From positions 1 through 64,000 of the forward strand of contig NZ_JALGYW010000026.1 in the NCBI RefSeq assembly GCF_023111095.1: a stretch of 64,000 bases of DNA, written 5' to 3'. Of this stretch, positions 45,451-62,298 are shown piece by piece. This DNA comes from Maribellus sp. YY47. GTDB lineage: Bacteria; Bacteroidota; Bacteroidia; Bacteroidales; Prolixibacteraceae. The notes beneath the pieces were generated by a model. It had not been told where the DNA came from. It did not search any database and was given only the letters and a program-made list of their open reading frames with translations. The translations under genes were made by a program, and so were the position numbers. How positions within the stretch are numbered: position 1 is the first letter of the stretch; the number at the start of each line of letters is the position of its first letter.

Positions 45451-45519
45451 AAAATGTAAGTCTATTTTTCCAAAGGTGAAGATAGTACAGAACTTGCACC
45501 CTGCAAAGTTTGAAAAGCT

Positions 45520-46287: not shown

Positions 46288-46355
46288 GTTTGATAATTCT
46301 ACAACTCTAAACAAGGAAAAATGCTAAAAAGTTGATCAAGGCGCTTTCAATACGT

Positions 46356-47840: not shown

Positions 47841-48042
47841 ATTTTCAAAAGCACTAAAAATACAATTTTTTGAACGGACAGTATCTGAGATATAAAAAAT
47901 CTAAAATAGTTGAATTGCAGGTTCGAAAATTGATTGTCCGAAGTTGCTGTGGAATCTTAACCCTACTGATTTAACGCCCTGTTTTACAACACAAAAGCTT
48001 CTTTTACATAACTTTCATACGCTAACTTTAAAAATCAAAAAA

Positions 48043-48447
48043 ATGAAAATTTTAAGAGGAACTGTTTTCGGAGCGATTGCATTTTTCTTCCTGGGCTGGC
48101 TGGTTTGGGGAATTTTACTTATGGATTTTTCAATGAACAACTACAACCAAGACGTTTATCTTCCTGAGAATGAAATGATCTGGTGGGCCATGATTGTTTC
48201 CAACCTCGCACTGGCCTTGCTGTTCACACTCATTCTGAATTGGGCCGGCGCTAAAACGTTGGTTGACGGCGCTAAAATCGCTGCCATTGTTGGTGTGTTA
48301 TATGCCCTTAGTATTGATCTGGGATTTTATTCCATGACCAATGTGATTCTGAATCTTTCAGCCATTGTTGTTGATATACTGGCTTATCTGCTGATTTCAG
48401 CCATTACCGGGCTGGTCATTGTATTGACCTGGGGAAAGAAGGAATAA
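48043..48447 (+). CDS. Small four-helix membrane protein
   Basis: A 134-residue membrane protein with four hydrophobic segments (GTVFGAIAFFFLGWLVWGILL, WWAMIVSNLALALLFTLIL, AAIVGVLYALSIDLGFYS, ILAYLLISAITGLVIVLTW). The open frame begins at a TTG at 47944, but the ATG at 48043 is taken because the first helix starts there and the preceding 33 residues are implausible. No family assigned. It is transcribed divergently from the M28 gene and ends at a strong terminator. Confidence 0.78.
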   Translation: MKILRGTVFGAIAFFFLGWLVWGILLMDFSMNNYNQDVYLPENEMIWWAMIVSNLALALLFTLILNWAGAKTLVDGAKIAAIVGVLYALSIDLGFYSMTNVILNLSAIVVDILAYLLISAITGLVIVLTWGKKE

Positions 48448-48460
48448 ACCCATTCACAAT

Positions 48461-48497
48461 AAAAAAACCTGCCAGAATTGCTTCTGCCAGGTTTTGA
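48461..48497. terminator. Bidirectional terminator
   Basis: AAACCTGCCAGAA and TTCTGCCAGGTTT pair over TTGC, with A and T runs on both sides. It separates the membrane protein from the leftward gene cluster beginning with the cytochrome c. Confidence 0.85.
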
Positions 48498-48559
48498 GGA
48501 ATATTTATAATTGAGGGACTATGATTTCTTTAAATTCTGTAAATCATTCCTGTTAAATT

Positions 48560-49129
48560 TTACATGGAAGGCGGAGTAGCCATCGGTACCAGGTTTTTAA
48601 CCGGCTTAATACTTTTCAAATAGGCAAAAATGGCTTTGAGGTCTTCCAACGGCATTTGGCTGTACGATTGCCAGGGCATCGGGGGCAGCAGCGATCTGCT
48701 GTTCTCAAGACCTTTCCATTTTCCTTCTTTCATTGCCCTGATAAACTGTTCCTCGGTCCAGCTACCAATGCCTGTTTGATCGGGAGTGAGGTTCGCGGCA
48801 TAAGAGGTTCCCCACGGGCCAATTGCTGCAGTGTTATTCATATTGAATAGTACATACGACTGTAATACTTTTTTATCGTATTCAGGTAAAGGCTCGGTGG
48901 CGGGATGACCTGACAAAAGCCTCAAAGAATCGGGAACCGGCCCCATGGCGGTCATTACTTTGGGCGAATGGCAATCGTTACATCCCATTATGGTCACCAG
49001 CTTTTCTCCTTTATCAATCATTTCTGATAAAGAAATTTCGACAGTTACTGCAGGGATTTCGCTCTTCTTTGGCGCGCATGCAACAAAAAGCAGCGCGATA
49101 AGTACTGTGAATAAAGAAATTGTTTTCAT
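48560..49129 (-). CDS. Monohaem cytochrome c lipoprotein
   Basis: A 189-residue exported electron carrier. The lipobox LLFVAC gives Cys18 as the anchor, and the haem motif is CNDCH (Cys50, Cys53, His54) in MGCNDCHSP. A distal Met ligand is plausible in LPPMPWQSYSQM (about 148-159). It lies 28 bp after the serine hydrolase and is the last gene of a unit that also holds a small outer-membrane protein and carries the palindromic regulatory site at 51205. The redox partner is unknown. Confidence 0.9.
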   Translation of the reverse strand: MKTISLFTVLIALLFVACAPKKSEIPAVTVEISLSEMIDKGEKLVTIMGCNDCHSPKVMTAMGPVPDSLRLLSGHPATEPLPEYDKKVLQSYVLFNMNNTAAIGPWGTSYAANLTPDQTGIGSWTEEQFIRAMKEGKWKGLENSRSLLPPMPWQSYSQMPLEDLKAIFAYLKSIKPVKNLVPMATPPSM

Positions 49130-49157: not shown

Positions 49158-50378
49158 TCAGTACGCTTTTAATGATTGCTCTTCATGCCAATTTGCAACG
49201 TAACGGCAGATGTCACGTTTTATATCGGTTATTTTAAAAAGGTATGGCCCATAAAGTTGCCTTCCCACATTCACGTTAATGAAGACGAAAGTGTTGGTGT
49301 CGGGTACATAAAATAATTGAGTCGAACAACCAATTCCATCACCCTCGTGTCCGAATTGCGGGGAAGAGCCAGGGTTAAACTGCCAGTATTCGAAACCCTC
49401 TCCGTATTCCGGTTCGGTCGAGTTTACTCCCTCTACCCAGTTTTGCATTTCGAGTAATGAATTAATGGAAACAATCTGCCCTGCAAGCAGAGCCTCGTGA
49501 AAACGTATTACATCGGCCGGCGTAGCAGCAAGAGCACCGTAAGCATCGCTGGCGTTAGCAAGTGCATTGTTCCATTTTGTAATATTCTCCAGCTGTTCAT
49601 TGGCATGTCTATCAAAATAGTAATTCGGAAAGCCAAGGGTTACAACTTGCTGGTTCTGCAAGCCATAATAAGTATGCCTAAGTTGCAAAGGCTGAATAAT
49701 TTGCTCGTCGAGCAATTGCCAGTAAGTCTTTCCGCTTACATATTCCAGAATAAGCTGTAGAAGAAGATAATTTGTATTCGAGTACAAAAAATCTGTTCCT
49801 GGTTCAAAAGCCAGCGGCTCATTTTTCATCATATTTAATCGTTGTTCAATAGAAGGTTGATCCAAAGGGTTGTTCAATTGACCAACAACAAACTCAGGAA
49901 GATCAGTAACATTCACAATTCCTGATGTGTGGTTTAACAACATTCTGACAGTCACTGGTTCATGACCCAATATTTTGTCAAGCACATCTTCAGGAAGATA
50001 CGATGTTATCGATTGGTCAGGATCAATTTCCCCGGCTTCAATCTGTTTCATAACAAGCGCTGCAGTATAAGTTTTCGTTATGCTGAACAGCCAGGTTGTT
50101 ACACCTGAGCGAAAAGTCTCCCCGGTTTCAATTTTGGCATACCCGTTGGTAACGTGCAACCAACCGTCATCATTTTTGATAACCACCTGAACTCCCGGAA
50201 TTCCTTTAGTTACATATTTGCCCATTATAAATTCAAGCGAGTCCTTCATCGGATGATCCGGATTGGATACAAAATCTTCGGCTGATGGCTGATTATCCAA
50301 CTCAAACAATTTGTTTTCACATGAACTGATTAATGTCAAAACTACAAGTGCTAAAAGGTATGGATAGAAAGTTTTCAT
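49158..50378 (-). CDS. Serine beta-lactamase-like hydrolase, lipoprotein
   Basis: A 406-residue class C beta-lactamase-fold hydrolase. Anchored at Cys20 (LTLISSC). Active-site motifs are Ser99-x-x-Lys102 (FSITK), YSN in FLYSNTNYLL, and HEG in FGHEGDGIG. Family members are esterases or D-peptidases, and true beta-lactam cleavage is not implied. The frame extends upstream to 50600, but the ATG at 50378 is preferred since it begins a proper lipoprotein signal (MKTFYPYLLALVVL). Its start is 10 bp after the outer-membrane protein gene, so they are co-transcribed. Confidence 0.88.
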   Translation of the reverse strand: MKTFYPYLLALVVLTLISSCENKLFELDNQPSAEDFVSNPDHPMKDSLEFIMGKYVTKGIPGVQVVIKNDDGWLHVTNGYAKIETGETFRSGVTTWLFSITKTYTAALVMKQIEAGEIDPDQSITSYLPEDVLDKILGHEPVTVRMLLNHTSGIVNVTDLPEFVVGQLNNPLDQPSIEQRLNMMKNEPLAFEPGTDFLYSNTNYLLLQLILEYVSGKTYWQLLDEQIIQPLQLRHTYYGLQNQQVVTLGFPNYYFDRHANEQLENITKWNNALANASDAYGALAATPADVIRFHEALLAGQIVSINSLLEMQNWVEGVNSTEPEYGEGFEYWQFNPGSSPQFGHEGDGIGCSTQLFYVPDTNTFVFINVNVGRQLYGPYLFKITDIKRDICRYVANWHEEQSLKAY

Positions 50379-50388
50379 GTTATTTCCG

Positions 50389-50982
50389 TTAATAGAGTTG
50401 AAATTTAAAACCACAGCTGATCGTTGAATCAGGCAGAGGATCAAAATCAGGATTATACCCCAAAAGAGCCTGTAATTGGTAAGCAATAAATGGAGTAACT
50501 GCAAAATAGGCGAGACGAATCGATCGGAATCCAACGCTAAACTGCAAGGGTATTTGGAAAATTCCTTTGAAATTTTTGCCCTTTTCCCATAAATCTCCAT
50601 CCCAGCTTAAAGTCTTTGTAGGGTATCCCGACAATCGGTAGCCAGCTCCAAAGCCGACTCCCAGTTCAATTTTTCTCAAAATAACCGGTAAAAACTGTGC
50701 TATAAATTGCAGACTTGATGCATTTCCCAGATACTGGCTTTGCTCATATTGAAATTGAAGGCCAACAGAAAAAACTTTCTTTTGACCTAACATTCTGTTG
50801 AGTCCTACTGAAGTAACAAGTCCGGGATTATCCCATTTTAAATTTTCAACCGGTGCATAAAAAGCATGTATTCCTGTCGAAATATCAAATTGCCATTTAG
50901 TCTCTTTTACTTGTTCTTCTGCTCTTGATATACAAAAAAGAAGAAGGAGAAGAAGCAGCAACATAATTGCTTTTTCAATCAT
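50389..50982 (-). CDS. Small outer-membrane-type beta-barrel protein
   Basis: A 197-residue exported protein of unknown function. It has a very hydrophobic signal peptide with eight leucines in a row (MIEKAIMLLLLLLLLFCISR). Alternating strands follow (VFSVGLQFQYEQSQYL, KIELGVGFGAGYRL, IQIPLQFSVGF-like) and a C-terminal aromatic strand ending FKFQLY, as in outer-membrane barrels. The frame is open to an ATG at 51120, but the 46 extra residues are polar and overlap a 15-bp hairpin, so the start at 50982 is favoured. First gene of the unit with the hydrolase and cytochrome. Confidence 0.7.
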   Translation of the reverse strand: MIEKAIMLLLLLLLLFCISRAEEQVKETKWQFDISTGIHAFYAPVENLKWDNPGLVTSVGLNRMLGQKKVFSVGLQFQYEQSQYLGNASSLQFIAQFLPVILRKIELGVGFGAGYRLSGYPTKTLSWDGDLWEKGKNFKGIFQIPLQFSVGFRSIRLAYFAVTPFIAYQLQALLGYNPDFDPLPDSTISCGFKFQLY

Positions 50983-50992
50983 GCCATTTAGA

Positions 50993-51029
50993 AATTTGTC
51001 CCGGTCTTCTTTTAGACCGGGAACAAATT
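50993..51029 (-). promoter_or_regulatory. Leader stem-loop just upstream of the outer-membrane protein start
   Basis: AATTTGTCCCGGTCT (50993-51007) pairs with AGACCGGGAACAAATT (51014-51029), 15 bp with one bulge and a 6-nt loop, ending 11 bp before the favoured start codon. There is no U-tract, so it could regulate translation or stabilise the transcript. Confidence 0.6.
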
Positions 51030-51172
51030 CTTGCTCATTGTTTTCTGTTTTTATTGTTTTCATTTGCTTAACTTCAATGCTTTCGAGGCAATCCCGTACA
51101 TTCGGGAAAATTCGCATCATATTTCAGAACTGACTATCTTACCATGCCCAATCAATGCTGTAATACATGTTA

Positions 51173-51204: not shown

Positions 51205-51218
51205 CACATACTTATGTG
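51205..51218. promoter_or_regulatory. Regulon palindrome, site 1: CACATACTTATGTG
   Basis: Arms CACATA / TATGTG with a 2-nt centre. The same pattern is found at 53377, 54852, 55587 and 58730. It is centred about 35 bp upstream of the centre of the -7 element at 51173-51180, hence near -42. Confidence 0.72.
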
Positions 51219-51243
51219 AAAATGAGCGTTGAAACGGTTAAAA

Positions 51244-51265
51244 GATGTGATTAAGAATCACATTC
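51244..51265 (-). terminator. Terminator after the hemerythrin gene
   Basis: ATGTGATT / AATCACAT (51244-51262, 3-nt loop). The minus strand continues CTTTTAACC, a modest U-tract, 18 bp after the hemerythrin stop codon. Confidence 0.6.
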
Positions 51266-51279
51266 TATTTTTGAAACAA

Positions 51280-51948
51280 TCATTCCTGGATTGCCAATGC
51301 CGACAACTGAATTCCGAGCGTTAGGAAATCGTCTTCAGGCATGCTCTCTCCCATTCGTTCCATCAGTGCATGAAACCGGTCGGTCGGCATGTTATTGCGG
51401 ATAGCTCCGAGCATCATCCGGTTCTCCGCGTCATTTTGTGCAGGAATCATGTGCTTGAGCCATACAGCATAGGTCTCAGGATCCATTTTTGCGACAATTG
51501 ATGCCCGAATGGCCAGTTGCTCTTCCCCGGAGAAATGCTCCCAAATCAGCCTCTGAGTCAGCGTTTCTTCCTCATCAATGTGTTCGAGATAGAGGCAGTA
51601 AAACTTTGCAAACTCAAGGTAAAAGTCGTGTGCTTCATCGGTTCTTACCGAAGTACTTAAAAGATTCAAATGAATTTCAAGTGAGCGTTGAAGTCTTTCA
51701 ATTTTTACATGATCGTTTTTATCGTGATCGGTCGCTCCCGGAACTTTTTGTTCGAGGGCCTTCAAAATGATCCGGTCTTCGGTTTCGGCATGAGAGCTTA
51801 GCAGGAAAAACATTTCCCGCCCTGCTTTTTTAAGTTTGGCAACTGCTCTCATGTTGTCAAAATTGGTTTGACCGATCATCACCATAAAATCGGCTATGGT
51901 TTTTCTGAGCGCTTTATGTGGCGCCGCAAATAGTCTGATTGTTTCCAT
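51280..51948 (-). CDS. Hemerythrin HHE-domain protein
   Basis: A 222-residue cytoplasmic four-helix protein. Candidate di-iron ligands are His11 (APHKALRK), the histidine and glutamate of LLSSHAETEDRIIL (about 52-65), the His cluster near DHDKNDH (about 75-81), and the YLEHIDEEE motif at about 127-135. Hemerythrin-like proteins bind oxygen, nitric oxide or iron. It follows the T9SS repeat protein by 27 bp and is probably co-transcribed under the palindrome at 53377. The C-terminal 80 residues have no recognised domain. Confidence 0.85.
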   Translation of the reverse strand: METIRLFAAPHKALRKTIADFMVMIGQTNFDNMRAVAKLKKAGREMFFLLSSHAETEDRIILKALEQKVPGATDHDKNDHVKIERLQRSLEIHLNLLSTSVRTDEAHDFYLEFAKFYCLYLEHIDEEETLTQRLIWEHFSGEEQLAIRASIVAKMDPETYAVWLKHMIPAQNDAENRMMLGAIRNNMPTDRFHALMERMGESMPEDDFLTLGIQLSALAIQE

Positions 51949-51975
51949 TTTGTTTTCTGTTTTTCGGGTGTGTTT

Positions 51976-53322
51976 TTATTGCTTCATTAATTCGGTGTTG
52001 TACACTCTTCCATCCTTGTTTAGGATATTCAGCACATAGGTTCCGGCTGTAAAATACCCGGTGTTAACTGAAATGGTGGGAGTTGAAAAAATTCCGCTAA
52101 ATACTTTTTGCCCGGTAAGAGACAAAATATTCACCTCGTAGGTGGAAAGTTGCGAATCGTCGATGTGAATATTTAGTGAGTTGTTCACCGGATTGGGGAA
52201 CACTTGTACATTATCAAGCAACTCCACAACAGGAACATCGGTTGTGAAATGCAGAAAACTGCTGTAAAGAAATTTCGAAATATTCGCCGGTTCTTCCATG
52301 CTGGGATCACGATACCGGAAAACCATTTGAGTAACATCGTCCGACTCGTTGTACGTGAGATCAAAAAAGAGCTCCATTTCGGCGTACCACTCGGTGCCGT
52401 CCCAACTGCTGTAAACAACCCCGGTCTGGTTTCCCCTGCCATCAATTGAAGCAAGGTATTTTTCCTTCTTCTGCCACTCCTCTTGTCGCCAAAGCTCAAG
52501 CGTAATCTGCTCTTCGGTATCAGTACTGGTATACGTTTCTCTTTTTTCGTTTACCCATTCGTTGTTTTTCCAAAGCTGAATAACATCGGTAAACGTATTT
52601 CCATTTCGCGACGAAGAGAAGCGCTCGGCATTCTCCCATGCTCCTTCCTTCCACAATTGAAGGGTGTAAGCTCCCAGCTCCCGTTTGTTCCAGTTTGTCC
52701 ACGTAATGTCCATTGTCTTGCTGTACGCATCCCATCCGGTACCGTTCCACGTGTACGTTTCCATTTCGGTTGGAACATTCTGAGCATTCAAGGTGTATAC
52801 ATCTTTTGTTTTGTTTACCCATTCGAAATTTTCCCAGGTTTGGTGAGTAACTCCGGTAATATCACCATTGCCATTAACCGTATAAACCGATTTCTCCCCC
52901 GCCGAAATAATCCACTCATCAACTCCCCTTGTATAGGCAATATCTTCCGTAATATTCCCAAAGTAATCGTAATCGTAGGAATTCCGGAACAGGTAAAGAT
53001 CTGTTCCTGCATCCTGAATGACTTCCCCGGTTGGGGCGCCCACATCGTTGTAAGAATAGGTAGTGTTTGTTACATACATCCACCCTCCCGATTCTTCATC
53101 CCAGGAAAAATCCTGGCTGAATCCGGGTTCAGAAAACTGGTCTCCGGTAAGCGTAAGATGCCTTAATTCATTCACCTTGGTACCGTTGTTAAGCGCGATG
53201 CTTTTAATATTTAAGCGCGGCAGTTTCCGCCCCTCCAACGATTTTTGTTTTGCGTTAACGCCAATTCCGAACATAACCAGCATAAAAAAAATACAGGTAA
53301 ATCTTGTTTTCATAGCTTTCAT
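51976..53322 (-). CDS. T9SS-secreted repeat protein
   Basis: A 448-residue surface or secreted protein. The signal peptide (KTRFTCIFFMLVMFGIGVNA, about 5-24) is followed by repeats of about 35-40 residues with W and N hallmarks: WENFEWVNKTKDVYTLN, LWKEGAWENAERFSSSRN, LWKNNEWVNEKRETYTS, LWRQEEWQKKEKYLAS. A T9SS type A sorting domain begins VQVFPNPVNNSLN (about 375). The repeats suggest a YD-like beta solenoid or propeller. Function unknown; a binding or structural role is likely. First gene of a unit with hemerythrin. Confidence 0.82.
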   Translation of the reverse strand: MKAMKTRFTCIFFMLVMFGIGVNAKQKSLEGRKLPRLNIKSIALNNGTKVNELRHLTLTGDQFSEPGFSQDFSWDEESGGWMYVTNTTYSYNDVGAPTGEVIQDAGTDLYLFRNSYDYDYFGNITEDIAYTRGVDEWIISAGEKSVYTVNGNGDITGVTHQTWENFEWVNKTKDVYTLNAQNVPTEMETYTWNGTGWDAYSKTMDITWTNWNKRELGAYTLQLWKEGAWENAERFSSSRNGNTFTDVIQLWKNNEWVNEKRETYTSTDTEEQITLELWRQEEWQKKEKYLASIDGRGNQTGVVYSSWDGTEWYAEMELFFDLTYNESDDVTQMVFRYRDPSMEEPANISKFLYSSFLHFTTDVPVVELLDNVQVFPNPVNNSLNIHIDDSQLSTYEVNILSLTGQKVFSGIFSTPTISVNTGYFTAGTYVLNILNKDGRVYNTELMKQ

Positions 53323-53344
53323 GTTTCTGATGATTAAACAGAAG

Positions 53345-53352
53345 CAAAGTAA
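53345..53352 (-). promoter_or_regulatory. Promoter core of the T9SS repeat protein unit
   Basis: The minus strand reads TTACTTTG; the TTTG core is 32 bp from the palindrome at 53377. The leader would be about 16-25 nt. Confidence 0.5.
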
Positions 53353-53376
53353 CTGTGAATACCAGTGAGGTACAAT

Positions 53377-53390
53377 CGCATGAAAATGTG
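53377..53390. promoter_or_regulatory. Regulon palindrome, site 2: CGCATGAAAATGTG
   Basis: Matches the consensus CrCATrnnwATGTG; less symmetrical than site 1. Followed by AAAA as in sites 1 and 3. Centre is 61 bp before the start codon at 53322. Confidence 0.65.
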
Positions 53391-53414
53391 AAAAGAGTTA
53401 GCTTCCAAATAAAA

Positions 53415-53442
53415 AAAGATGTGATTGCTCATCACATCTTTT
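53415..53442 (-). terminator. Terminator of the S41 peptidase gene
   Basis: AAAGATGTGAT / ATCACATCTTT form an 11-bp stem over TGCTC, with TTTTTTT following on the minus strand. Confidence 0.8.
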
Positions 53443-53492
53443 ACTCCATTTAAAATCCAAAAAAAAGAGGTTAACATCGAAAAACATATTTA

Positions 53493-54791
53493 TTACTGAA
53501 TTATCCTGAGCGAATTGGTGAATTCGAGGCCTTTCATAACCCGCTCGTTATCCGGATCAAGCACAGGTACCTCATCCACAATAAAACGGTATTCGTTAAT
53601 CCCCGCTTCGCATTCAACGGTTGTCACCCAGCCCTCTTTCTGTTTCTGCATCGGAATGGTTTTCCGGGCCCAATTGTTAAACGTTCCGGTTAAAAACACT
53701 TCCTGCGCATCCAGGTGTCCTTTTAGTTTGAATGTTTCCTGTTTAAAAACCGGTGGATTGCCTTCGGTAAATTCCAGCCAGTTCGCCAAAAAAGTTTTCT
53801 TCTTTGAGTCGGTTGCACTTGTAATGCAATCGTTTAACGCAAGTTTGTAGCTTTCATACAAAGCCCTATTCGCTTTTTCTGAAATATCGGGCGTAACTCC
53901 AACTCCTTCCCAGTTTGAATGGGTTACGGGGCTGAGGGTTGTTCCGTTGGGTATAAAAGCGCTAAAATGATCATTCAACCGCATACTTATTCCCGGATTT
54001 GCACCTCCCCTTGTCTGTTCTCCAACAACCGTTATTCGCCCCAAAGCCTGCATATTGTAGCTAAATGCTTCACCTCCGGAGAAAGTCCGTGCGCTGGTTA
54101 CTACATACACCGGCTTATTCAGGTAACGCTTCCCCGGAAGATAGGAATAAGTCCACTTTTGCTCCGTTCTGTTCCCTCTTCTCCAAACCAGGTCGTTCAG
54201 GTGCACAGATTCGCGAAAAAAGTAGCTGGCAAAAAAGCTGATGCCATCCACTCCCATCGCACCCCTGCAATTTCTAAGATCGATAATCAGGGCATCAGTA
54301 TGCGACAGATAATCCATAATCGCTGCATATTTTTTACCGGCTTCATCGGCCCCAAAAATGCAACTAAAGTCGATCAGCCCGATATTCCCTTTTAAAATGT
54401 CAACCTTCCGAATACCAAAATTCTCCTGTACCGTGAACCGACGCACCATTTCTTCTTCTTCGGCAGTAAAAACATAGGGATCATTGTTTTGATCCGGTAA
54501 TACAGTTTTAGAATATTCCTGTCTTAAATGTTGATCGCGACCCGATTTTCGCAAATCAGCACTAATTTGAGCAGCAAAAGTACGCTCATCAGAGATCGAA
54601 TTATAACTGCCTTTTTTTTGCTCTTCGCGAATAAACTGAATGGCTTGCTTAGCCTTTTCGGGAAAAACATAGTATTGTTCCAATTTAGCACACAACGAAT
54701 CGATAAGCAGATGTTTCTCTTGTGCGGTAAGTTGTGCCTTTATTGCGCCGGAAAGCAATAAGGTAAATGTGAATAAGATGATCGTTTTCAT
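53493..54791 (-). CDS. S41-family peptidase with C-terminal E-set (CBM48-like) domain
   Basis: A 432-residue exported protein. The signal peptide is MKTIILFTFTLLLSGAIKAQ; the frame is open to 54833 but the ATG at 54791 starts this signal. A tail-specific-protease domain (about 20-310) has LIDLRNCRGAMGVD and the catalytic serine in ARTFSGGEAFSY, with GEQTRGGANPG after it, as in the tricorn/IRBP-like branch; no PDZ domain is seen. The last 85 residues (VFLTGTFNNWARKTIPMQKQ, INEYRFIVDEVPVLDP) form an AMPK/CBM48-like E-set domain. That fusion is unusual. Its own palindrome site lies at 54852. Confidence 0.88.
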   Translation of the reverse strand: MKTIILFTFTLLLSGAIKAQLTAQEKHLLIDSLCAKLEQYYVFPEKAKQAIQFIREEQKKGSYNSISDERTFAAQISADLRKSGRDQHLRQEYSKTVLPDQNNDPYVFTAEEEEMVRRFTVQENFGIRKVDILKGNIGLIDFSCIFGADEAGKKYAAIMDYLSHTDALIIDLRNCRGAMGVDGISFFASYFFRESVHLNDLVWRRGNRTEQKWTYSYLPGKRYLNKPVYVVTSARTFSGGEAFSYNMQALGRITVVGEQTRGGANPGISMRLNDHFSAFIPNGTTLSPVTHSNWEGVGVTPDISEKANRALYESYKLALNDCITSATDSKKKTFLANWLEFTEGNPPVFKQETFKLKGHLDAQEVFLTGTFNNWARKTIPMQKQKEGWVTTVECEAGINEYRFIVDEVPVLDPDNERVMKGLEFTNSLRIIQ

Positions 54792-54819
54792 GTCTTCTGT
54801 TTTTAACAATTGTTCAAGG

Positions 54820-54827
54820 CAAAGTAA
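54820..54827 (-). promoter_or_regulatory. Promoter core of the S41 peptidase gene
   Basis: The minus strand reads TTACTTTG, identical to the core at 53345-53352 and at the same 32-bp distance from its palindrome. Confidence 0.55.
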
Positions 54828-54851
54828 GCCCATTGAACAACGTCGTAAAAT

Positions 54852-54865
54852 CGCATGATTATGTG
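54852..54865. promoter_or_regulatory. Regulon palindrome, site 3: CGCATGATTATGTG
   Basis: Matches CrCATrnnwATGTG and is followed by AAAATGA, as at site 1. Centre is 67 bp before the S41 start codon. Confidence 0.7.
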
Positions 54866-54907
54866 AAAATGAATGGGAGAAGACGACAGAACACGAACGA
54901 ATCTGCC

Positions 54908-55540
54908 CTAAACCAGCTTGTCTTTAAAAGCTTTGGCAACGGCTTCGCTTTTGCTGTTTACCTGTAGTTTTTCGTAGATCTTCTTGATGTGCGAACGCAC
55001 CGTATCGATGGCAATAAACATTTCGCTGGCAATCATCTTATAGCTGTAACCATTCACCAACAGTTGCAACACTTCCTTTTCGCGGTCGCTCAGGTTGTAT
55101 TCGTGGTTTTTCTGCGCAGGCAATTCTGAAAACATCTTAAGTACCTGCGTTGCAATCGACGATGTCATTGGGGCGCCGCCGGAAGCCACATCCTCGATGT
55201 ATTCCAGCAACTTCGCAGGCGGTGTTTTCTTCAGGAGATAGCCGTTTGCACCGTTTTTAAGCGCTTCAAAAACATTGGTATTATCATCGAAAACCGTCAG
55301 CATCAGCACCTTTACCTCCTGGTTCACTTCCCTTATTTTTTTCAGCCCTTCAATTCCGTTCATTGCTGGCATATCAATGTCCATCAGAATCACATCCGGA
55401 TTCCAGGCTTTCACTTCCGCAATAATATTGGAGCAGTTTTTAAAAGAGGCCACCACATTAAAACCTTCGCTGCCGTCAATCAGCATGGTAAGGCCTTCCC
55501 GTAGCTGGGGATTGTCTTCGTATATTAATACCTTCGTCAT
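54908..55540 (-). CDS. NarL/LuxR-family response regulator
   Basis: A 210-residue regulator. The receiver domain has the acidic pair EDN at the N-terminus, phospho-acceptor Asp54 (VILMDIDMP), Thr in VLMLTVFDD and Lys in NGYLLKKTPPAK. A LuxR-type helix-turn-helix follows at about 142-205 (LSDREKEVLQLLVNGYSYKM, then IDTVRSHIKKIYEKLQV). The frame extends to 55609, overlapping the kinase gene by 4 bp, but the ATG at 55540 starts the receiver fold exactly. It is the obvious candidate to bind the palindromes at 51205-58743, including its own at 55587. Confidence 0.93.
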   Translation of the reverse strand: MTKVLIYEDNPQLREGLTMLIDGSEGFNVVASFKNCSNIIAEVKAWNPDVILMDIDMPAMNGIEGLKKIREVNQEVKVLMLTVFDDNTNVFEALKNGANGYLLKKTPPAKLLEYIEDVASGGAPMTSSIATQVLKMFSELPAQKNHEYNLSDREKEVLQLLVNGYSYKMIASEMFIAIDTVRSHIKKIYEKLQVNSKSEAVAKAFKDKLV

Positions 55541-55555
55541 CAACCTTGTTTTAGT

Positions 55556-55563
55556 CAAAAATA
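55556..55563 (-). promoter_or_regulatory. Promoter core of the response regulator gene
   Basis: The minus strand reads TATTTTTG, an exact TAnnTTTG match; its TTTG is 31 bp from the palindrome at 55587. The leader would be about 10 nt. Confidence 0.6.
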
Positions 55564-55586
55564 CGGAACCCTGTAGATTTTTTGTC

Positions 55587-55600
55587 CACATAAATATGTG
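55587..55600. promoter_or_regulatory. Regulon palindrome, site 4: CACATAAATATGTG
   Basis: Arms CACATA / TATGTG with a 2-nt centre. Centre is 53 bp before the response regulator start codon, just beyond the kinase stop codon. Confidence 0.75.
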
Positions 55601-55605
55601 AAATT

Positions 55606-58600
55606 TCAACCCGTTACAGGAATCAGCAGCAAAATCCGGGTACCCTTTCCTTTCTCACTTTCAATTCTAATTTCGCCCCGCAAAGCTTCTGCCCGCTTTT
55701 GCATGTTTCCCAACCCGTTTCCCGAATCGGCTGTTTGAGATTTAAACCCAATACCGTTGTCGGCTATCCTGATTTTCAATTCTTTGTGTTCGTGCATAAT
55801 AAAAACATCCACTTTTGTGCAGCGGCTGTATTTGGCGCTGTTGTTCACCGCCTCTTTAAAAATCAGAAACACATCGCGGCGGGTCTCCATATTCAAGCGC
55901 AAATCGTAAATCTTTTCCTCCACGTGAAACGAAACATCCACATTCCGGGGTTCCAGAATGGAGGAAGCATATTCGCGCATCCTTGCTACGATCTTTTGCA
56001 TGTTGTCGTTGTCCGGTTTTATGCTCCAAACAATGTCATCCATGGCTTCCATCATCTGCTGGCTGTTATCGGTAATTTTTGAAATGTATTCGCTGGTTTT
56101 TACCGGGTCGGTCAGCAGCTTTGTTTTGGCCATCGAACTTAAAATATTGATCGTGCTAAGCGTAGAACCCACATCGTCATGAAGATCGCGGGCCACTTTT
56201 ATCCGGATACGTTCAACGGCCAAAAGTTTGTTTAGTCGCATCCGGTAAAAGAGATAGGTCAGTCCAGCTATCAACAAAAAAAACAGAGCTATAAACCACC
56301 TTGTTTGGTAAAAATGCGGAAGGATCGTCATTCGCAACGTTGTTGTGTTAAGCGATTCCAGTCCCTGCATGTTGATACATTTCACGTGAAAAACATAATC
56401 TCCGGGAGCCAGGGTGGTGTAACTGGCTGTCAGATTATTTTCTGCCCTGTTCCAGTCTTTGTCAACACCATCCATTTTGTAGTAATAAACCAGCTGGTCT
56501 TGCTGGGTAAAGCTCAACGAAGAAAAGTAAATGGTAAACGAATTTTCGTGGGGCTGAAATACGACTTTTTCACTGGACAAAAGTGAATCAAGCGGGATAA
56601 AAGTATCGAACAGTTTAAAGTCGGTTAATGTCACATCGGGTGGAGCGGTCTTAAATTTCAATCCTTCGGGTCGGAATCCAAACAGCACGTTTTCGCCACC
56701 AAACCAGAATTCCCCGTTTTGCATTCTGAACTTCGCATTCGTGGATTTATCGGCCATAATAATCCCGTTTCGTTCGTTGTACGACACAAAAATGTTGTTT
56801 TCGTAATTGTAACTTACCAATCCGTTGTTGCTGGTAAACCAAAGCACGTCTTTGTCGTCGATTAACATTTGCGATACATTTCCCCCCGGAAGGCCCTGGT
56901 ATTGGGTCAATACTTTAACCTCTCCCGAACTTATATTGATGATATCGAGAAAACCGCTACTGACAAAAAATATACTGTCGTTCAACTGCACAATATCCTG
57001 CACGCTGTTTCCGGTATTTTGTGTTTCACGAAAGGGCTTTTCGGTAAAATGATACAACACATCCGATGCCGACGGGTCCATTGCAAATACACCGTCGCTG
57101 TGTGTTCCAACCCAAATACGATCTTCCCTGTCTCTGTACAGCGTAAAAACGGCGGTCTTGAAATCCCTCACTATTTCAAAGTTTTCATCCGAAATTTCCG
57201 TTCCGTATCTCCACCTGATCAACTTACCACTTTGCGTTCCAAACAAAAGGTTTCCGTCTTTGTCTTCAAGCACTTTGCGAATGGTGCTGTACTTAAAAAC
57301 CGGCGGCCAGACAAAAGCAACCGGGCTTTTTTTGCCGGGATCAAAAACTGCTATGGCACCACCCTGGCAAACCGACCAAACATGTCCCGACAAAGAATGC
57401 TGGCATAAATCCCACACCAGGTAGTAATTGGGAAGTTTATCCTTGGGTAGCGATGAATACATTTCGTGTTTTACCGGCTTAAACTGATCGTCAAAAGTCA
57501 GAATCCCATTCCCCCAGGTCCCCAGCCAGTTATCTTTACTTCGCGTCTCCAGTATCGACGTCACCATGATATCCTTGTCTTTGCTTTGTGTTTCGAATAC
57601 ATAATTCATCACACTTTTTTCAGGAGTCAGAATATACAAACCATTGTCGGTACTCAACCAGCTGTTGCCCTCGCGATCTTCAAACATCTGTTTAATTTCG
57701 CGGCATTTAATTTCATATTCTTTGGGTGCTGTTTTCCGATACTGAATCAAGGTACCTGCCTCCGAATCATGCTTTAACAAGGCATTAATACCTCCCATCC
57801 AGACTTGTCCCTGCCTGGTTTCATAAATCCAGGCCAGTTCTGCATAACCCGGAAAAGCAGCATGGAATCCAAGGGTATCATTCAAACTCTCGTTTTTTTC
57901 AGGACAATAATGAAGGACTTCTGCCTTCTCTCCCCTCGGATCAAAATCCCAGTAAAAAATCCACCAGGTATTGTTTTTATCGATGTAGAAATTATTAACG
58001 AATGTGTGGCTGAAAGTCTCAAAGAAAGGATGTTTGGAAGGATTGTGACCATGGTAAATCAGCGATTGGGTGGCGCTTTCGTACAAAGCCAGTCCGCGTT
58101 CGCTGCTGATCCAGTAATTGCCTGTTTGCGTATCTTCAAACAAGGAACTCACCGGCCAGCCTTCCGGAACGCTTATGGGGAGGTTATCTTCGGTAAATTT
58201 GCTCTGCGCCGGATCGTACCACAAGAGCCCGTATTTCGCAATGCACAAAAACGTATTTCCTTTACTATCCGTGTAAAGCTGAAGGTTACTTTGCGGCAGA
58301 TAGGCCCTTTCTGTTTCAACAGGAACAGTGTAGTAATGAAACGAAACAGGATCAAACTGTCCGATCATTCTTCCCTGCCTGATCCACATACGGCCGTTTC
58401 CGGCATCCAGAATCTGATCAACGCCAAAGGGAGGCATCGAAAACTCATTTCCATCCGTTCGGAAACGAATAAATTTGCGGCCATCAAAACGTTGAATTCC
58501 ATTTTCGGTCCCTACCCACAAAAAACCTTTCTGATCCTGCCACACACAATTAACACTGTTTGTGTTCAGTCCTTCGGCACGCGAAAGCCGATTAAAAATA

Positions 58601-58668
58601 AAATACCTCTGCCCAAAAACAGAGGCACTTATCAATAAAAAAAGCAGGAAAAATAAAGTTCTGGACAT
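55606..58668 (-). CDS. Propeller-type sensor histidine kinase
   Basis: A 1020-residue sensor. Signal peptide (ends VFG, residue 19), then a large periplasmic domain of two beta-propellers with repeated blades such as FLWVGTENGIQRFDG, IWVGTHSDGVFAMDP and VLWFTSNNGLVSYNY. A Y_Y_Y domain (about 690-765), one membrane helix (WFIALFFLLIAGLTYLFY, about 775-800), and a HisKA_3 kinase core follow, with His830 in RDLHDDVGST and ATP-binding motifs DNGIGF and GNGLGNM. It resembles the sensory half of the hybrid systems that control glycan loci but lacks a fused regulator; the partner is encoded next to it. Palindrome site 5 lies upstream. Confidence 0.93.
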   Translation of the reverse strand: MSRTLFFLLFLLISASVFGQRYFIFNRLSRAEGLNTNSVNCVWQDQKGFLWVGTENGIQRFDGRKFIRFRTDGNEFSMPPFGVDQILDAGNGRMWIRQGRMIGQFDPVSFHYYTVPVETERAYLPQSNLQLYTDSKGNTFLCIAKYGLLWYDPAQSKFTEDNLPISVPEGWPVSSLFEDTQTGNYWISSERGLALYESATQSLIYHGHNPSKHPFFETFSHTFVNNFYIDKNNTWWIFYWDFDPRGEKAEVLHYCPEKNESLNDTLGFHAAFPGYAELAWIYETRQGQVWMGGINALLKHDSEAGTLIQYRKTAPKEYEIKCREIKQMFEDREGNSWLSTDNGLYILTPEKSVMNYVFETQSKDKDIMVTSILETRSKDNWLGTWGNGILTFDDQFKPVKHEMYSSLPKDKLPNYYLVWDLCQHSLSGHVWSVCQGGAIAVFDPGKKSPVAFVWPPVFKYSTIRKVLEDKDGNLLFGTQSGKLIRWRYGTEISDENFEIVRDFKTAVFTLYRDREDRIWVGTHSDGVFAMDPSASDVLYHFTEKPFRETQNTGNSVQDIVQLNDSIFFVSSGFLDIINISSGEVKVLTQYQGLPGGNVSQMLIDDKDVLWFTSNNGLVSYNYENNIFVSYNERNGIIMADKSTNAKFRMQNGEFWFGGENVLFGFRPEGLKFKTAPPDVTLTDFKLFDTFIPLDSLLSSEKVVFQPHENSFTIYFSSLSFTQQDQLVYYYKMDGVDKDWNRAENNLTASYTTLAPGDYVFHVKCINMQGLESLNTTTLRMTILPHFYQTRWFIALFFLLIAGLTYLFYRMRLNKLLAVERIRIKVARDLHDDVGSTLSTINILSSMAKTKLLTDPVKTSEYISKITDNSQQMMEAMDDIVWSIKPDNDNMQKIVARMREYASSILEPRNVDVSFHVEEKIYDLRLNMETRRDVFLIFKEAVNNSAKYSRCTKVDVFIMHEHKELKIRIADNGIGFKSQTADSGNGLGNMQKRAEALRGEIRIESEKGKGTRILLLIPVTG

Positions 58669-58729
58669 AGACCTATTTTATCCTAAAAATACGAAATGAT
58701 TGCGTGCAAAAACAAGACATTCAAAAAAC

Positions 58730-58743
58730 CACATGTTTATGTG
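58730..58743. promoter_or_regulatory. Regulon palindrome, site 5: CACATGTTTATGTG
   Basis: Arms CACAT / ATGTG with a 4-nt centre. It is centred 68 bp before the kinase start codon, but no TTTG core occurs at the 32-bp spacing found for the other sites. Confidence 0.65.
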
Positions 58744-58787
58744 ACTGTTTGAAAGGTTCGTATCCCTCAATTCCCCAAAAGCTGCTT

Positions 58788-59693
58788 TTATCCCCCAACC
58801 TCTGCTTCCACTCCGTACGAATTAAATATTTCGATTGCCTTCTCTATTTCCTCTTCGGAAGGTTCAGCCATATCAAATTCCTCGTAATTTGAACCAAGTT
58901 TGTTGTACTTGTGCGCAGCAATGTTGTGGTATGGCAACAAGCTAACAAGCGGCGTTTCACCGGGCAGTACAGCAATAAATTCGGCCATTTTTGAAACCTC
59001 GTATTCCGAAGTATTTACATTTTGTATGAACGGGACCCGAATATTGATTGCGGCGCCTGTTTCAGCCAGTTTAACCAGGTTTTCAAGAATGAGTTTATTA
59101 TCCTTTCCGGTCCATTTTTTATGCTGAACAGGATCCATAATTTTCAGATCGTATAAAAACAAATCGGTGTGTGTTGCCACTTCCAGCAACGTTTCTGCAG
59201 GCGCAAAACCACAGGTATCCACCGCACGGTGCAAACCGGCTTTCCCGCATTCCTGAAGCATTTCAAGCAGAAAACCGGGAAACATCAACGGTTCACCTCC
59301 TGAAAAAGTTACTCCGCCTTCTGAGTGTTCAATGTGTACGCGTTCACGCTCAATAATCTGCATTAACTCTACTGCATCGTACAATTTCCCCGACATCTGA
59401 ATCGCCTTCGTCGGACAGGCATCGGCGCACAAACCACAAAGCGTACATTTTTCTACATCGGTCACAATTCCGTTTGGAGTCAGTGTTAATGCGTCTTCCG
59501 GGCAATTTTCAATGCAATCTTGTGCGCCAATACACTTCGAAGCGGTATACAGTTTCTGCATTTTAGGCAGTTGGCTTTCGGGGTTGTGGCACCATTTGCA
59601 GCGCAGCGGACAACCTTTAACGTAAAGAGCAATGCGAATTCCCGGGCCATCGTTAATGGCGTAGCGTTTTATATCGAAAATAAGTGGAATCAT
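58788..59693 (-). CDS. Glycyl-radical enzyme activating protein (radical SAM)
   Basis: A 301-residue radical SAM activase. The SAM cluster ligands are Cys28, Cys32 and Cys35 in KGCPLRCKWCHNPES. A two-cluster ferredoxin insert follows (CIGAQDCIENCPEDAL, then CTLCGLCADACPTKA), the form found in activases for dehydratase-type glycyl radical enzymes, not in classical pyruvate formate-lyase activase. GGVTFSGGEPL binds SAM. It abstracts the glycine hydrogen of the partner encoded 142 bp upstream. The two genes are separated by a hairpin-rich repeat, which may uncouple their expression. Confidence 0.93.
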   Translation of the reverse strand: MIPLIFDIKRYAINDGPGIRIALYVKGCPLRCKWCHNPESQLPKMQKLYTASKCIGAQDCIENCPEDALTLTPNGIVTDVEKCTLCGLCADACPTKAIQMSGKLYDAVELMQIIERERVHIEHSEGGVTFSGGEPLMFPGFLLEMLQECGKAGLHRAVDTCGFAPAETLLEVATHTDLFLYDLKIMDPVQHKKWTGKDNKLILENLVKLAETGAAINIRVPFIQNVNTSEYEVSKMAEFIAVLPGETPLVSLLPYHNIAAHKYNKLGSNYEEFDMAEPSEEEIEKAIEIFNSYGVEAEVGG

Positions 59694-59751
59694 TTATTAG
59701 TTTATATGCTTATGGTACCCGTTGTTTCATTTGTACTTTGTGTTGTAATTT

Positions 59752-59815
59752 ATGACCCCCTAAATCCCCCGAAGGGGGACTTCTCCTCCCCTTTGGGGAG
59801 GTTGGGAGGGGTCAT
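59752..59815. repeat. Multi-hairpin GC-rich intergenic repeat
   Basis: Outer arms ATGACCCC / GGGGTCAT enclose two hairpins: CCCCC-GAA-GGGGG (59766-59778) and CTCCCC-TTT-GGGGAG (59786-59800). This cloverleaf-like shape, between activase and enzyme genes, is typical of a mobile REP-like element of Bacteroidota. Confidence 0.8.
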
Positions 59816-59835
59816 TAACTTTAATTCTTCCTATT

Positions 59836-62298
59836 TTAAAGTAACTCGTTTTCTGTGCGATCGATAATCTCCTGTTGCAGATCGGCGTTCATATCGTTAA
59901 AATAGTCGCTGTAACCCGCCATTCGAACCAGTAGATCTTTGTAATCTTCGGGGCAAGCCTGTGCTGCATACAAAGTAGCAGTATCAACTATATTAAACTG
60001 AATGTGATGACCACCCAGCGAGAAATAACTGCGGATCAGGTGTCCCAGTTTTTCCATGTCTTTTTCGCGTTTCAGCAGGCTTGGAACAAAACGCAGGTTG
60101 AGCAAGGTTCCACCGGATTTTGTCTGATCGAGTTTACCAAGCGAACGAATTACATTGGTTGGCCCGTGCGTATCGCATCCGTGCGACGGCGAAGTTCCAT
60201 CGGAAATTGATTTACCTGAAAAACGCCCGTTGGCAGAAGCTCCCAGCACTAAACCAAAATAAACATGGCAGGTGGTGGAAAGCATATTCAAATGAAAAAC
60301 TTCTCCTTTTGTGTTGGGTTTACCTTCGATAGCATTCAGCAAATCGTTGTAAACGCGCAATGCAATGTTATCGGCATATTCATCGTCGTTCCCAAAAAAC
60401 GGCGTCCAGTTCAGAATTCTTTGACGCAAGGCTTCTTCGCCTTCATAGTTCTTTGCTATGGCTTTCAGCAAAGTATCCATGGTGAAGGTTTTATCTTCAA
60501 ACACATGCTTTTTTAATACTGAAAGACTGTCAGTAACAGTGCCCAAACCGGTACATTGAATGTAGTTGGTGTTGTATCGCGGCCCGCCGTTGTAATAGTC
60601 TTTTCCCTTCGAAATACAGTCTTCAATCACCACCGAAAGGAAAGGTGCGGGAGCATATTTGGCAAACATCTGGTCGATGTAGTTGCTAACACGAACTTTT
60701 TGATCAACTACAAAATTCAGCTGTTTCAGAAATGCTTCGTACAGTTCTTCATAGCTTTTAAAACTCAAAGGATCGCCGGTTTCTATACCGGCAACTTTAC
60801 CAGTTAGCGGATCAATTCCGTTGTTCAGCGTTATCTCCAGAACTTTTGGAACATTCAGATAACCGGTAAGCAGATACGCTTCTTTACCAAAAGCACCCAC
60901 TTCAATACAACCGCTGCAGCCACCTTCGCGTGCATCCTGCAGGCTTTTTCCTTGATTTACAAGTTCCTGAATATACACATCGGGATTAAAAACAGAAGGA
61001 TAACCGTGGCCCTGGCGAATCAGATGTACCGCCGCGTTCAGAAATTTATCGGGCGTTACTTTGCTGATATGAACCGAGTTTCCGGGCTGAAGAATGTGCA
61101 GTTCTTCGGTTACTTCCAGCATCATGTACGAAACCTCGCTAACAGCGTCGGTCCCGTCGGGTTTAACACCACCGATGTTGATGTTGGTAAAGTCGTTAAA
61201 AGTTCCGCTTTCACGAGCGGTAATTCCAACTTTTGGCGGTGCCGGATGGTTGTTCACCTTTATCCAGAAACAGGAGATCAATTCTTTTGCCTGGTCGCGG
61301 GTGAGCGTACCTTCAGCAAGCTCCTTTTCATAAAATGGTTGCAAATGCTGATCAAAATGCCCCGGATTCATGGCGTCCCATCCATTCAGTTCGGTAACTG
61401 TTCCGAGATGCACAAACCAATACATCTGAATGGCTTCCCAAACATTTCGGGGTGCATGAGCCGGCACCCAACGGCACACTTCAGCAATGCGTTTCAGTTC
61501 CCCGACACGCTGCGGATCTTTTTCCGTTTTAGCCATTTCGTCAGCCAACTCAGCATGACGTTCAGCAAAAACAATAACTGCATCGCACGAAATATCCATT
61601 GCTTTTAATTCTTCCAGCTTACTGGTTGCTTCCGGATCATTCAGAAAATCGAGACTATCGATGTGTGCCTTAATTTCCTTTTTATAGTCAAGCATTCCTT
61701 TTCGGTAAATCGTCCCGTCGAGCGCGGTGTGACCCGGAGCACGTTGTTCCATAAACTCGGTAAATACACCGGCTTCGTAGGCCCTTTTCCATTCATTCGG
61801 AACATGATTGAAAATGCGTTCGCGCATCGTGCGGCCCTGCCAATAAGGAATAACCTCGCGTTCGTAGGTGTCAATATCTTCCTGCGAAACGGTATAACGC
61901 TGCTGATCGCGCGTGTTCAGTACATGAAAATCTTCCACACTGTGACAGGTTAACTCCGGAAAAGTGGGAACCGATTTTGGTTTTGGCCCGCGTTCTCCAA
62001 CAATAAGTTCATCATCACCTATATAAATCGTCTTTTGTTTGCAAATCTCCAGGAAATTCAGGGCGCGCATTACCGGCTCCGAATATTTTCCGTAATTCTC
62101 TTTGTAAAAGCGGGTGGTGATCAACGCCCTTTCGATAGATAAAGATTCCTGAGTTTCAACACTTAACTTTCTTAAGCGCTGAATACGTTCATTCATTCCG
62201 GGGCCTATTTTTTGGGTTTTGGTTGGTTGATAGAAATTACCTTCCGCTCCGGCGGGGCGTTCAGGTGCTTTTTGGGTTTTTATTTCAGCAAATGACAT
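59836..62298 (-). CDS. Glycyl radical enzyme, 4-hydroxyproline dehydratase (HypD)-like
   Basis: An 820-residue glycyl radical enzyme. The thiyl Cys464 and the following Glu466 form GCIE, as in the dehydratase/eliminase branch (glycerol dehydratase, choline lyase, HypD). The adjacent Cys-Cys of pyruvate formate-lyase is absent. The radical glycine is Gly795 in VRMAGYSDYF. The segments FTEFMEQRAPGHT (about 179-191) and GAFGKEAYLLTGYLN (468-482) recall HypD, which dehydrates trans-4-hydroxyproline to pyrroline-5-carboxylate. An N-terminal extension of about 34 residues is unusual and an ATG at residue 35 is a possible start. The oxygen-sensitive mechanism implies anaerobic use. No proC gene is adjacent, so the substrate remains an inference. 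Confidence 0.85.
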   Translation of the reverse strand: MSFAEIKTQKAPERPAGAEGNFYQPTKTQKIGPGMNERIQRLRKLSVETQESLSIERALITTRFYKENYGKYSEPVMRALNFLEICKQKTIYIGDDELIVGERGPKPKSVPTFPELTCHSVEDFHVLNTRDQQRYTVSQEDIDTYEREVIPYWQGRTMRERIFNHVPNEWKRAYEAGVFTEFMEQRAPGHTALDGTIYRKGMLDYKKEIKAHIDSLDFLNDPEATSKLEELKAMDISCDAVIVFAERHAELADEMAKTEKDPQRVGELKRIAEVCRWVPAHAPRNVWEAIQMYWFVHLGTVTELNGWDAMNPGHFDQHLQPFYEKELAEGTLTRDQAKELISCFWIKVNNHPAPPKVGITARESGTFNDFTNINIGGVKPDGTDAVSEVSYMMLEVTEELHILQPGNSVHISKVTPDKFLNAAVHLIRQGHGYPSVFNPDVYIQELVNQGKSLQDAREGGCSGCIEVGAFGKEAYLLTGYLNVPKVLEITLNNGIDPLTGKVAGIETGDPLSFKSYEELYEAFLKQLNFVVDQKVRVSNYIDQMFAKYAPAPFLSVVIEDCISKGKDYYNGGPRYNTNYIQCTGLGTVTDSLSVLKKHVFEDKTFTMDTLLKAIAKNYEGEEALRQRILNWTPFFGNDDEYADNIALRVYNDLLNAIEGKPNTKGEVFHLNMLSTTCHVYFGLVLGASANGRFSGKSISDGTSPSHGCDTHGPTNVIRSLGKLDQTKSGGTLLNLRFVPSLLKREKDMEKLGHLIRSYFSLGGHHIQFNIVDTATLYAAQACPEDYKDLLVRMAGYSDYFNDMNADLQQEIIDRTENELL

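Follow-up and report, generated by a model that had tools for sequence, protein, structure and literature searches.

A palindrome at fixed promoter spacing as the putative operator of a nearly local two-component regulon in Maribellus sp. YY47 and scattered relatives

The described systems closest to the one considered here are the NarL/FixJ-type two-component systems NarXL, UhpBA, VraSR and LiaRS, which are not known to use the operator reported below, and the hybrid two-component systems of Bacteroides polysaccharide loci, whose Reg_prop/Y_Y_Y sensor kinases are of the same general type. These hybrids join the kinase to a regulator with an AraC-type DNA-binding domain (PMC11253607). Here, we analysed a stretch of 64,000 nucleotides from Maribellus sp. 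YY47 (NZ_JALGYW010000026.1, positions 1 to 64,000; hereafter the window), in which a sensor histidine kinase, a NarL/FixJ-type response regulator and three further transcription units form one cluster, with all genes on the minus strand and one palindrome ahead of each unit. We put at roughly 80% the probability that this cluster is a self-contained two-component regulon, with the palindrome as an operator nearly confined to it; this reading is drawn from sequence comparison.

The initial annotation had placed the palindrome at 51205, 53377, 54852, 55587 and 58730, before every transcription unit of the cluster and, as far as could be seen by eye, nowhere else in the window. A search with CRCATRNNWATGTG returned exactly these five positions and no other, all on the minus strand; on the gene strand, the sites read CACATAAACATGTG (kinase), CACATATTTATGTG (regulator), CACATAATCATGCG (S41 peptidase), CACATTTTCATGCG (type 9 secretion system, T9SS, protein) and CACATAAGTATGTG (outer-membrane-type protein, OMP, unit). 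They amount to 7 strand matches at 5 places, against a mean expectation of 0.04, and none of 100 shuffles reached 7. The concern that the motif might be frequent genome-wide was dispelled, as the five cluster copies are the sole CRCATRNNWATGTG matches in the 5,037,815-base genome (reversed control, 0). Allowing two mismatches brought the window count to chance level (27 versus a mean of 27.9), so that the signal resides in the exact copies. A loose scan of seven genomes with TCACATNNNNATGYGA and two mismatches exceeded its reversed control by a modest margin (own genome, 213/200 versus 165/166) and was not used. The 14-bp pattern first described understates the element, since the conserved stretch of target promoters is TTT-CACAT-N4-RTGYG-ATT(G/T).

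The annotation had also suggested looking for the motif in relatives, and orthologous clusters indeed carry TTTCACAT-N4-ATGYGATT ahead of their units (loci and genomes are designated below by L and G numbers, respectively). When nine other loci (161,470 bases) were scanned with a scoring matrix built from the five window sites alone, the matches numbered 33, 30 and 25 at scores of 12, 14 and 16, respectively. Forty Markov shuffles of these loci gave means of only 4.3, 1.6 and 0.4 (maximum of 5 at score 14), and 3, 1 and 0 matches were found in 182,221 bases from 28 control loci, of which six surround S41 homologs and 22 surround cytochrome paralogs; the shared putative operator stands ahead of units in the genomes that carry the regulator and is lacking at homologous genes in other places. 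A score of 9 had proved too loose (45 real matches versus a shuffled mean of 23.65). Among the 30 matches scoring at least 14, L064:1176 falls outside its cluster. Using a 46-bp pattern, CACAYNNNNRTGYGAT-N26-TTTG with at most one mismatch, we found 27 places in nine system-carrying genomes, 25 of them in clusters, the reversed controls totalling 3. This pattern was derived from loci of seven of the nine genomes; in the other two (G790 and G707), whose clusters were unseen when it was fixed, it occurred at 9 places, 8 inside clusters.

For promoter geometry, 43 readings were aligned, comprising 26 target, 9 regulator and 8 kinase promoters, two of the kinase readings (from L107) being uncertain. 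The kinase set includes L107:5320 (TTTG at 28) and L107:5215 in its kinase-ward reading, the latter site being counted towards S41 too; L063:13827 (score 12.0) was retained among the targets, while L064:1176 (score 13.3, about 5 kb before the kinase) and two out-of-cluster sites in L136 and L137 were left out. The Bacteroidota primary-sigma consensus consists of TAnnTTTG at -7 and a TTTG-like element near -33 (PMC7366714). In the target promoters, which come from 10 loci, TTTG lies at offset 28 after the 14-mer in 25 of 26 (23 of 24 without two near-copies from the sister species), and if it represents -7 to -4, the palindrome would span about -49 to -36 and the ATT(G/T) behind it about -35 to -32. 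This fixed spacing supports the earlier placement of the palindrome near -42. The accompanying statement that TTTG lies 31-32 bp from four of the five window sites is correct when measured to the G, as TTTG begins 28 bp (51205, 53377 and 54852) or 27 bp (55587) beyond the 14-mer; no TTTG follows at 27-28 bp from site 58730, that of the kinase. No variation was seen among the 26 targets at the left-half CAC, the right-half TG or the ATT behind the palindrome; the base after that is G in 16 and T in 10. Because this ATT(G/T) directly follows the palindrome at the expected -33 position, the idea that the palindrome replaces the -33 box had to be given up for targets, and the operator would rather sit beside a -33-like element. 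The TA of TAnnTTTG is present in none of the 26 target cores. Regulator promoters show TTTG at offset 27 in 7 of 9 cases and the full TAnnTTTG in all 6 examined for it, with the ATT after the palindrome missing in 7 of 9; four kinase promoters share TA(A/T)(T/C)TTTA at offset 38.

Most target promoters carry a second element. The pattern ATGTG(A/G)-N7 or N8-(T/C)CAC(A/G)T was found upstream of 17 of the 26 target promoters and of none of 13 kinase and regulator promoters; the table compiled for it took 28 promoters (the 26 targets, L107:5320 and L136), all 17 positives being among the 26. Its hexamers are those of the operator facing outward (ATGTGA-N7-TCACAT), and its centre lies 41 to 44.5 bp before the palindrome centre in all 17. 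No such element accompanies the S41 promoter in the window, in Maribellus sp. CM-23 or in L062, and L065 lacks it, as do the sites of L107 and L108. The everted element is also terminator-like, with a stem of up to 12 pairs and a T tail, and it may be a second operator, an insulating terminator, or both. That it merely terminates the preceding gene, without regulatory role, has close to an even chance in our judgement: besides the stem and T tail, G-T or T-G pairs, which sense RNA allows, occur at two pair positions in five cells (pair 1 is G-T in four rows and pair 5 T-G in one), one row has a compensating change at pair 7, and regulator promoters, which lie directly behind the kinase gene, lack the element. 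The wobble changes, the T tail and the place behind another gene thus favour a terminator, while the fixed spacing and hexamers favour a protein site. Counting against a terminator alone are hexamers matching the operator's, the invariance of pairs 2, 3, 4 and 6 in 17 rows, mismatches in five cells at the outer pairs 7 and 8 (pair 1 is also mismatched in one row) and the constant centre distance, as well as the rarity of the pattern elsewhere, with a single occurrence on both strands of 56 other loci (264,444 bases). We tentatively raise, as a rather doubtful proposal, a two-part operator at most target promoters made of four copies of one hexamer, in which an inward pair beside the polymerase site and an outward pair about four helical turns upstream would be bridged by the same regulator, the outward pair serving also as terminator of the preceding gene. 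If so, the terminator would move together with operator and promoter in a single insulated cassette, by which a strictly local regulator gains new targets while the gene set turns over.

Kinase and regulator look like a cognate pair. Regulators are identical in the sister species and 74.5-88.9% identical in the other orthologs; the recognition helix FIAIDTVRSHIKKIYEKL is unchanged in 9 of 9, as is the Asp of LMDI(D/N)M, presumably the phospho-acceptor of the receiver. In the six orthologous kinases, the dimerization and histidine phosphotransfer domains are 76-92% identical, compared with 47-57% for the sensors and 52-59% for the ATPase domains; conservation is highest at the surfaces predicted to mediate the kinase-regulator and regulator-DNA contacts. 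Within the genome, the next closest regulator of this type has 34% identity (at E 1e-15, seven matched, itself included). From these domains and their co-conservation, the beta-propeller histidine kinase, with a periplasmic sensor, would phosphorylate the regulator, a dimer of which would bind TTCACAT-N4-ATGYGA. Bound at about -49 to -36 in targets, abutting the -33-like ATT(G/T), it would most likely be a class II-type activator of poor promoters, because the target -7 core is without the TA; its own gene, with a full core one base pair closer, fits basal expression and autoregulation.

Repression from the same sites, with the units silent until phosphorylation changes, is an improbable alternative: a protein abutting the presumed -33 element could block polymerase, yet the TA-less core in 26 of 26 targets and the single exact spacing are what activator-dependent promoters would be expected to show, and repressor sites require no such exactness. 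It is still less likely that another DNA-binding protein reads the palindrome and that the two-component genes are merely targets, even if kinase and regulator promoters bear the site like the remaining units, as the sites keep to the clusters and, among the genomes examined, reappear only where this regulator is found, and kinase and regulator are the only genes common to complete clusters, with no other regulator gene shared. Finally, recent copying or mobile DNA might have spread the repeats without any regulation, as hinted by a 97% block shared with the sister species and by the L062 cytochrome and OMP promoters and a site of G509 outside its cluster, which resemble copied promoter segments, but this is hardly credible given that sites and spacing survive at 49-60% kinase identity though the intervening DNA diverged, and that site 1 (51205), beyond the shared block, reads CACACATCTGTGTG in the sister species with the outer bases, the TTTT/ATTT flanks and the TTTG spacing kept. 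The block in question (window 51279-59764) is 96.8% identical to Maribellus sp. CM-23 (L048/L061), as compared to 80% for 45258-49129, and has a sharp edge at the hemerythrin stop; we read it as a probable recent exchange or introgression.

Several observations weigh against a tidy, strictly local regulon. (i) Sites 2-5 of the window and of CM-23 are not independent, because they lie inside the 97% block. (ii) The looser CRCATNNNNATGYG (any middle bases, right half ATGCG) matches 12 genome places, 5 in the cluster and 7 elsewhere (reversed control, 3), and some weaker sites outside the cluster are thus not excluded. (iii) The layout is not uniform: TTTA replaces TTTG in the sole target exception at offset 28 (the L062 S41 promoter) and in the L107 and L108 regulator promoters, and kinase promoters share no TTTG position, their layout being other than that of the targets. 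(iv) The L108 site 14213 faces no close gene, and the assignment of some genes is doubtful in L107, L108 and the L065 fragment. (v) Two places of the 46-bp pattern, G509:C60 and G790:C44, lie out of cluster. The former, ahead of which a broken everted form is found, precedes a gene whose first residues resemble that genome's T9SS protein, with a T9SS C-terminus fragment nearby; promoter and signal peptide may have been copied there, a possible promoter capture. The latter lies about 270 bp ahead of an adenylate cyclase (read by eye) and may be due to chance.

At the G509 outside site (L136:5866-8821), a second operator-promoter copy stands ahead of a gene that fuses a T9SS-like signal peptide to an unrelated protein. 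Upstream of the L108 kinase, two sites (14157 and 14213) lie 56 bp apart in opposite orientations, 14213 having TTTG at offset 28. Weak TTTACATT-like sequences resembling the operator (e.g. L159:2919 and 2958) were also seen at cytochrome-paralog loci of other genomes of the genus (L145, L149, L154, L157 and L159, near 2875-2960); a related regulator may use them as its sites.

The system has a rare and patchy distribution: including that of the window, 11 genomes were read that contain the cluster or some part of it. Six kinase orthologs at 52-98% identity, and nine further matches at 20-32%, came from a scan across 84,980 species that relied on six exact peptides and may therefore have missed orthologs. 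The orthologs belong to Maribellus sp. CM-23 (98%), two Prolixibacteraceae bins (60% and 52%, the contig of the latter beginning within the gene), Flavobacteriaceae UBA6231 (56%), Bacteroidetes GWF2_41_31 (54%) and Yeosuana aromativorans (53%). The kinase was matched at E 1e-150 in 2 of 101 relatives, and a regulator match at E 1e-80 was obtained for 4 of 140 genomes in the family of the window species and for 3 of 397 in that of Yeosuana. Clusters were also present in G790 and G707, and partial ones in G035 and G015, of the same genus, where contigs end within the cluster; G035 keeps the last 56 residues of the regulator open reading frame (ORF) at 93%, and the G015 contig is without kinase and regulator. 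S41 homologs proved a poor guide to orthologous clusters, with matches in 4 of the 101 relatives and 7 of the 395 genomes of the phylum (own genome counted in both), and six S41-homolog loci (L055-L060; from 8 hits outside the window and sister species) lacked homologs of kinase and regulator at E 1e-5 and gave no match to a strict expression for the site. No relative of the regulator was found in viral contigs. A faecal record labelled Bacteriophage sp. (MT835672.1:28648-30918) encodes a protein 22% identical over 77% of the kinase; perhaps the label is questionable, or the gene has been captured.

The system, whose gene combination had seemed unfamiliar, exists in other genomes with changing exported hydrolases, cytochromes c and surface proteins. 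Cytochrome c is encoded in the window, L061-L064, L066, G035 and G015, and on another contig in G506, and homology search found no homolog in L107 or L108. The S41 peptidase with E-set domain occurs in the window, CM-23, L064 and L108, and another S41 type in L062, L107 and L108 (Pfam) and G015 (by sequence); L063 has an aspartyl protease with PDZ domain (Pfam). Serine hydrolases were found in the window, L062, L066, L108, G035 and G015, the T9SS protein in the window, CM-23, L062, L064 and G035, hemerythrin in the window, CM-23, L062, G035 and G015, and beta-helix proteins in L107 (Pfam) and L108 (by sequence). Most targets have signal-like or lipoprotein-like starts (by eye), hemerythrin being without one. 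The promoter module would thus stay constant while its targets change, and our best guess for its role is a signal-induced envelope or secreted-hydrolase response. New recruitment of the OMP unit in the window species was ruled out, as unit and site are present in G035 and G015 and a changed site lies ahead of the cytochrome in the sister species. A CPBP-type membrane protease-like gene (by eye) follows hemerythrin in G035 and G015 (L166:11679-12542 and L167:10849-11697) and lies beside the G509 outside site (L136:7684-8547); CM-23 seemingly keeps a remnant (L048:4294-4458) and the window none.

Table 1. Genes, palindromes and everted elements of the cluster in the window.
Feature	Position	Strand	Basis or remark
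Sensor histidine kinase, 1020 amino acids	55606..58668	minus	Pfam Reg_prop beta-propeller, Y_Y_Y, HisKA_3 and HATPase_c, above cut-offs; six orthologs, 52-98%
NarL/FixJ-type response regulator, about 210 amino acids	54908..55540	minus	Pfam Response_reg and GerE; start taken as ATG at 55540
S41 peptidase with AMPK1_CBM (E-set)	53493..54791	minus	Pfam Peptidase_S41; promoter position
T9SS type A secreted beta-repeat protein	51976..53322	minus	Por_Secre_tail; TIGR04183; homologs in L062, L064 and G035
Hemerythrin-domain protein, downstream of T9SS gene	51280..51948	minus	Pfam Hemerythrin
OMP	50389..51120	minus	without Pfam family; homologs in L062, G035 and G015; membrane type by eye
Beta-lactamase-like serine hydrolase	49158..50600 (longest ORF)	minus	PF00144; among the NCBIfam matches listed, all far under cut-offs
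c-type cytochrome, last gene of OMP unit	48560..49129	minus	PF00034
Palindrome ahead of kinase	58730..58743	minus	core-like TATTTTTA at 58691-58684
Palindrome ahead of regulator	55587..55600	minus	TATTTTTG at 55563-55556
Palindrome ahead of S41 gene	54852..54865	minus	TTTG at 54823-54820
Palindrome ahead of T9SS and hemerythrin unit	53377..53390	minus	TTTG at 53348-53345
Palindrome ahead of OMP, hydrolase and cytochrome unit	51205..51218	minus	TTTG at 51176-51173
Everted element (ATGTGAT-N5-ATCACAT) upstream of T9SS promoter	53419..53437	minus	within terminator-like hairpin 53414-53442
Everted element upstream of OMP-unit promoter	51245..51263	minus	

As for the genes themselves (Table 1), the regulator agrees with the NarL/FixJ-type definition, with a receiver (PF00072, 97.5 bits) and a C-terminal GerE domain (LuxR-type helix-turn-helix; PF00196, 66.2 bits). 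The S41 gene probably starts at the ATG at 54791 rather than at the longest-ORF start (54833), because the -7 core falls within the longest ORF, and the serine hydrolase probably starts further inside its ORF. SusC and SusD were not among the nine cluster proteins scanned with Pfam. An AlphaFold model of the T9SS protein, built from 4 sequences (pLDDT, the predicted local confidence, 68.4), matched long beta-repeat proteins in Foldseek at template-modelling scores of at most 0.27 by query length, as well as a T9SS C-terminal domain (mirolase, 8qb1). The stretch immediately ahead of the kinase (58788-62298, minus strand) encodes a glycyl-radical enzyme, which reached 1173.5 bits with the model for trans-4-hydroxy-L-proline dehydratase (cut-off, 1100), together with its activase (346.5 bits, under the cut-off of 425); they are not beside the kinase in the orthologous loci read.

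Overall, kinase and regulator belong to known families, and what emerges is a regulon that appears real, conserved and nearly local. It offers a clear case in which regulator and promoter module stay constant while the controlled genes change. How activators contact the Bacteroidota polymerase is poorly known, and in Flavobacterium johnsoniae the -33 element has escaped identification (PMC7366714); the base-pair spacing kept here between the putative operator, the -33-like ATT(G/T) and the -7 core provides a ready system for asking. In the titles and abstract openings of the open-access literature searched, the operator, promoter layout, second element and cluster were not found described.

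With the NarL/FixJ-type systems, the cluster shares a HisKA_3-type kinase core, whose best NCBIfam match is UhpB (88 bits, under cut-off), and a receiver-GerE regulator, which scores 156.6 bits with the NarL model (under the cut-off of 250) and has NarL and VraR as its nearest solved structures; it differs from them in the beta-propeller sensor, operator, promoter geometry and targets. It is no equivalog of LiaRS/VraSR, as the LiaS model gave 76.4 bits against a cut-off of 450 and VraR is a structural homolog only. In contrast to the Bacteroides hybrid systems, defined by a single polypeptide, kinase and regulator are here separate proteins and the DNA-binding domain is GerE. The last comparison is with a plasmid of Hymenobacter volaticus (NZ_CP095068.1, L175), which carries a pair with 50% (regulator) and 27% (kinase) identity, adjoined by a divergent serine hydrolase (32%) and OMP (26%). 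There, the palindrome AGCATCTTCATGCT is followed by ATTG and has TTTG at offset 28, like the cluster targets, but its half-site is AGCAT instead of CACAT, and only two sites are present (L175:3663 and 7479; AGCAT-N4-ATGC), the kinase one having its first TTTG at offset 16. This plasmid is possibly a case of shifted operator specificity on a similar promoter layout.

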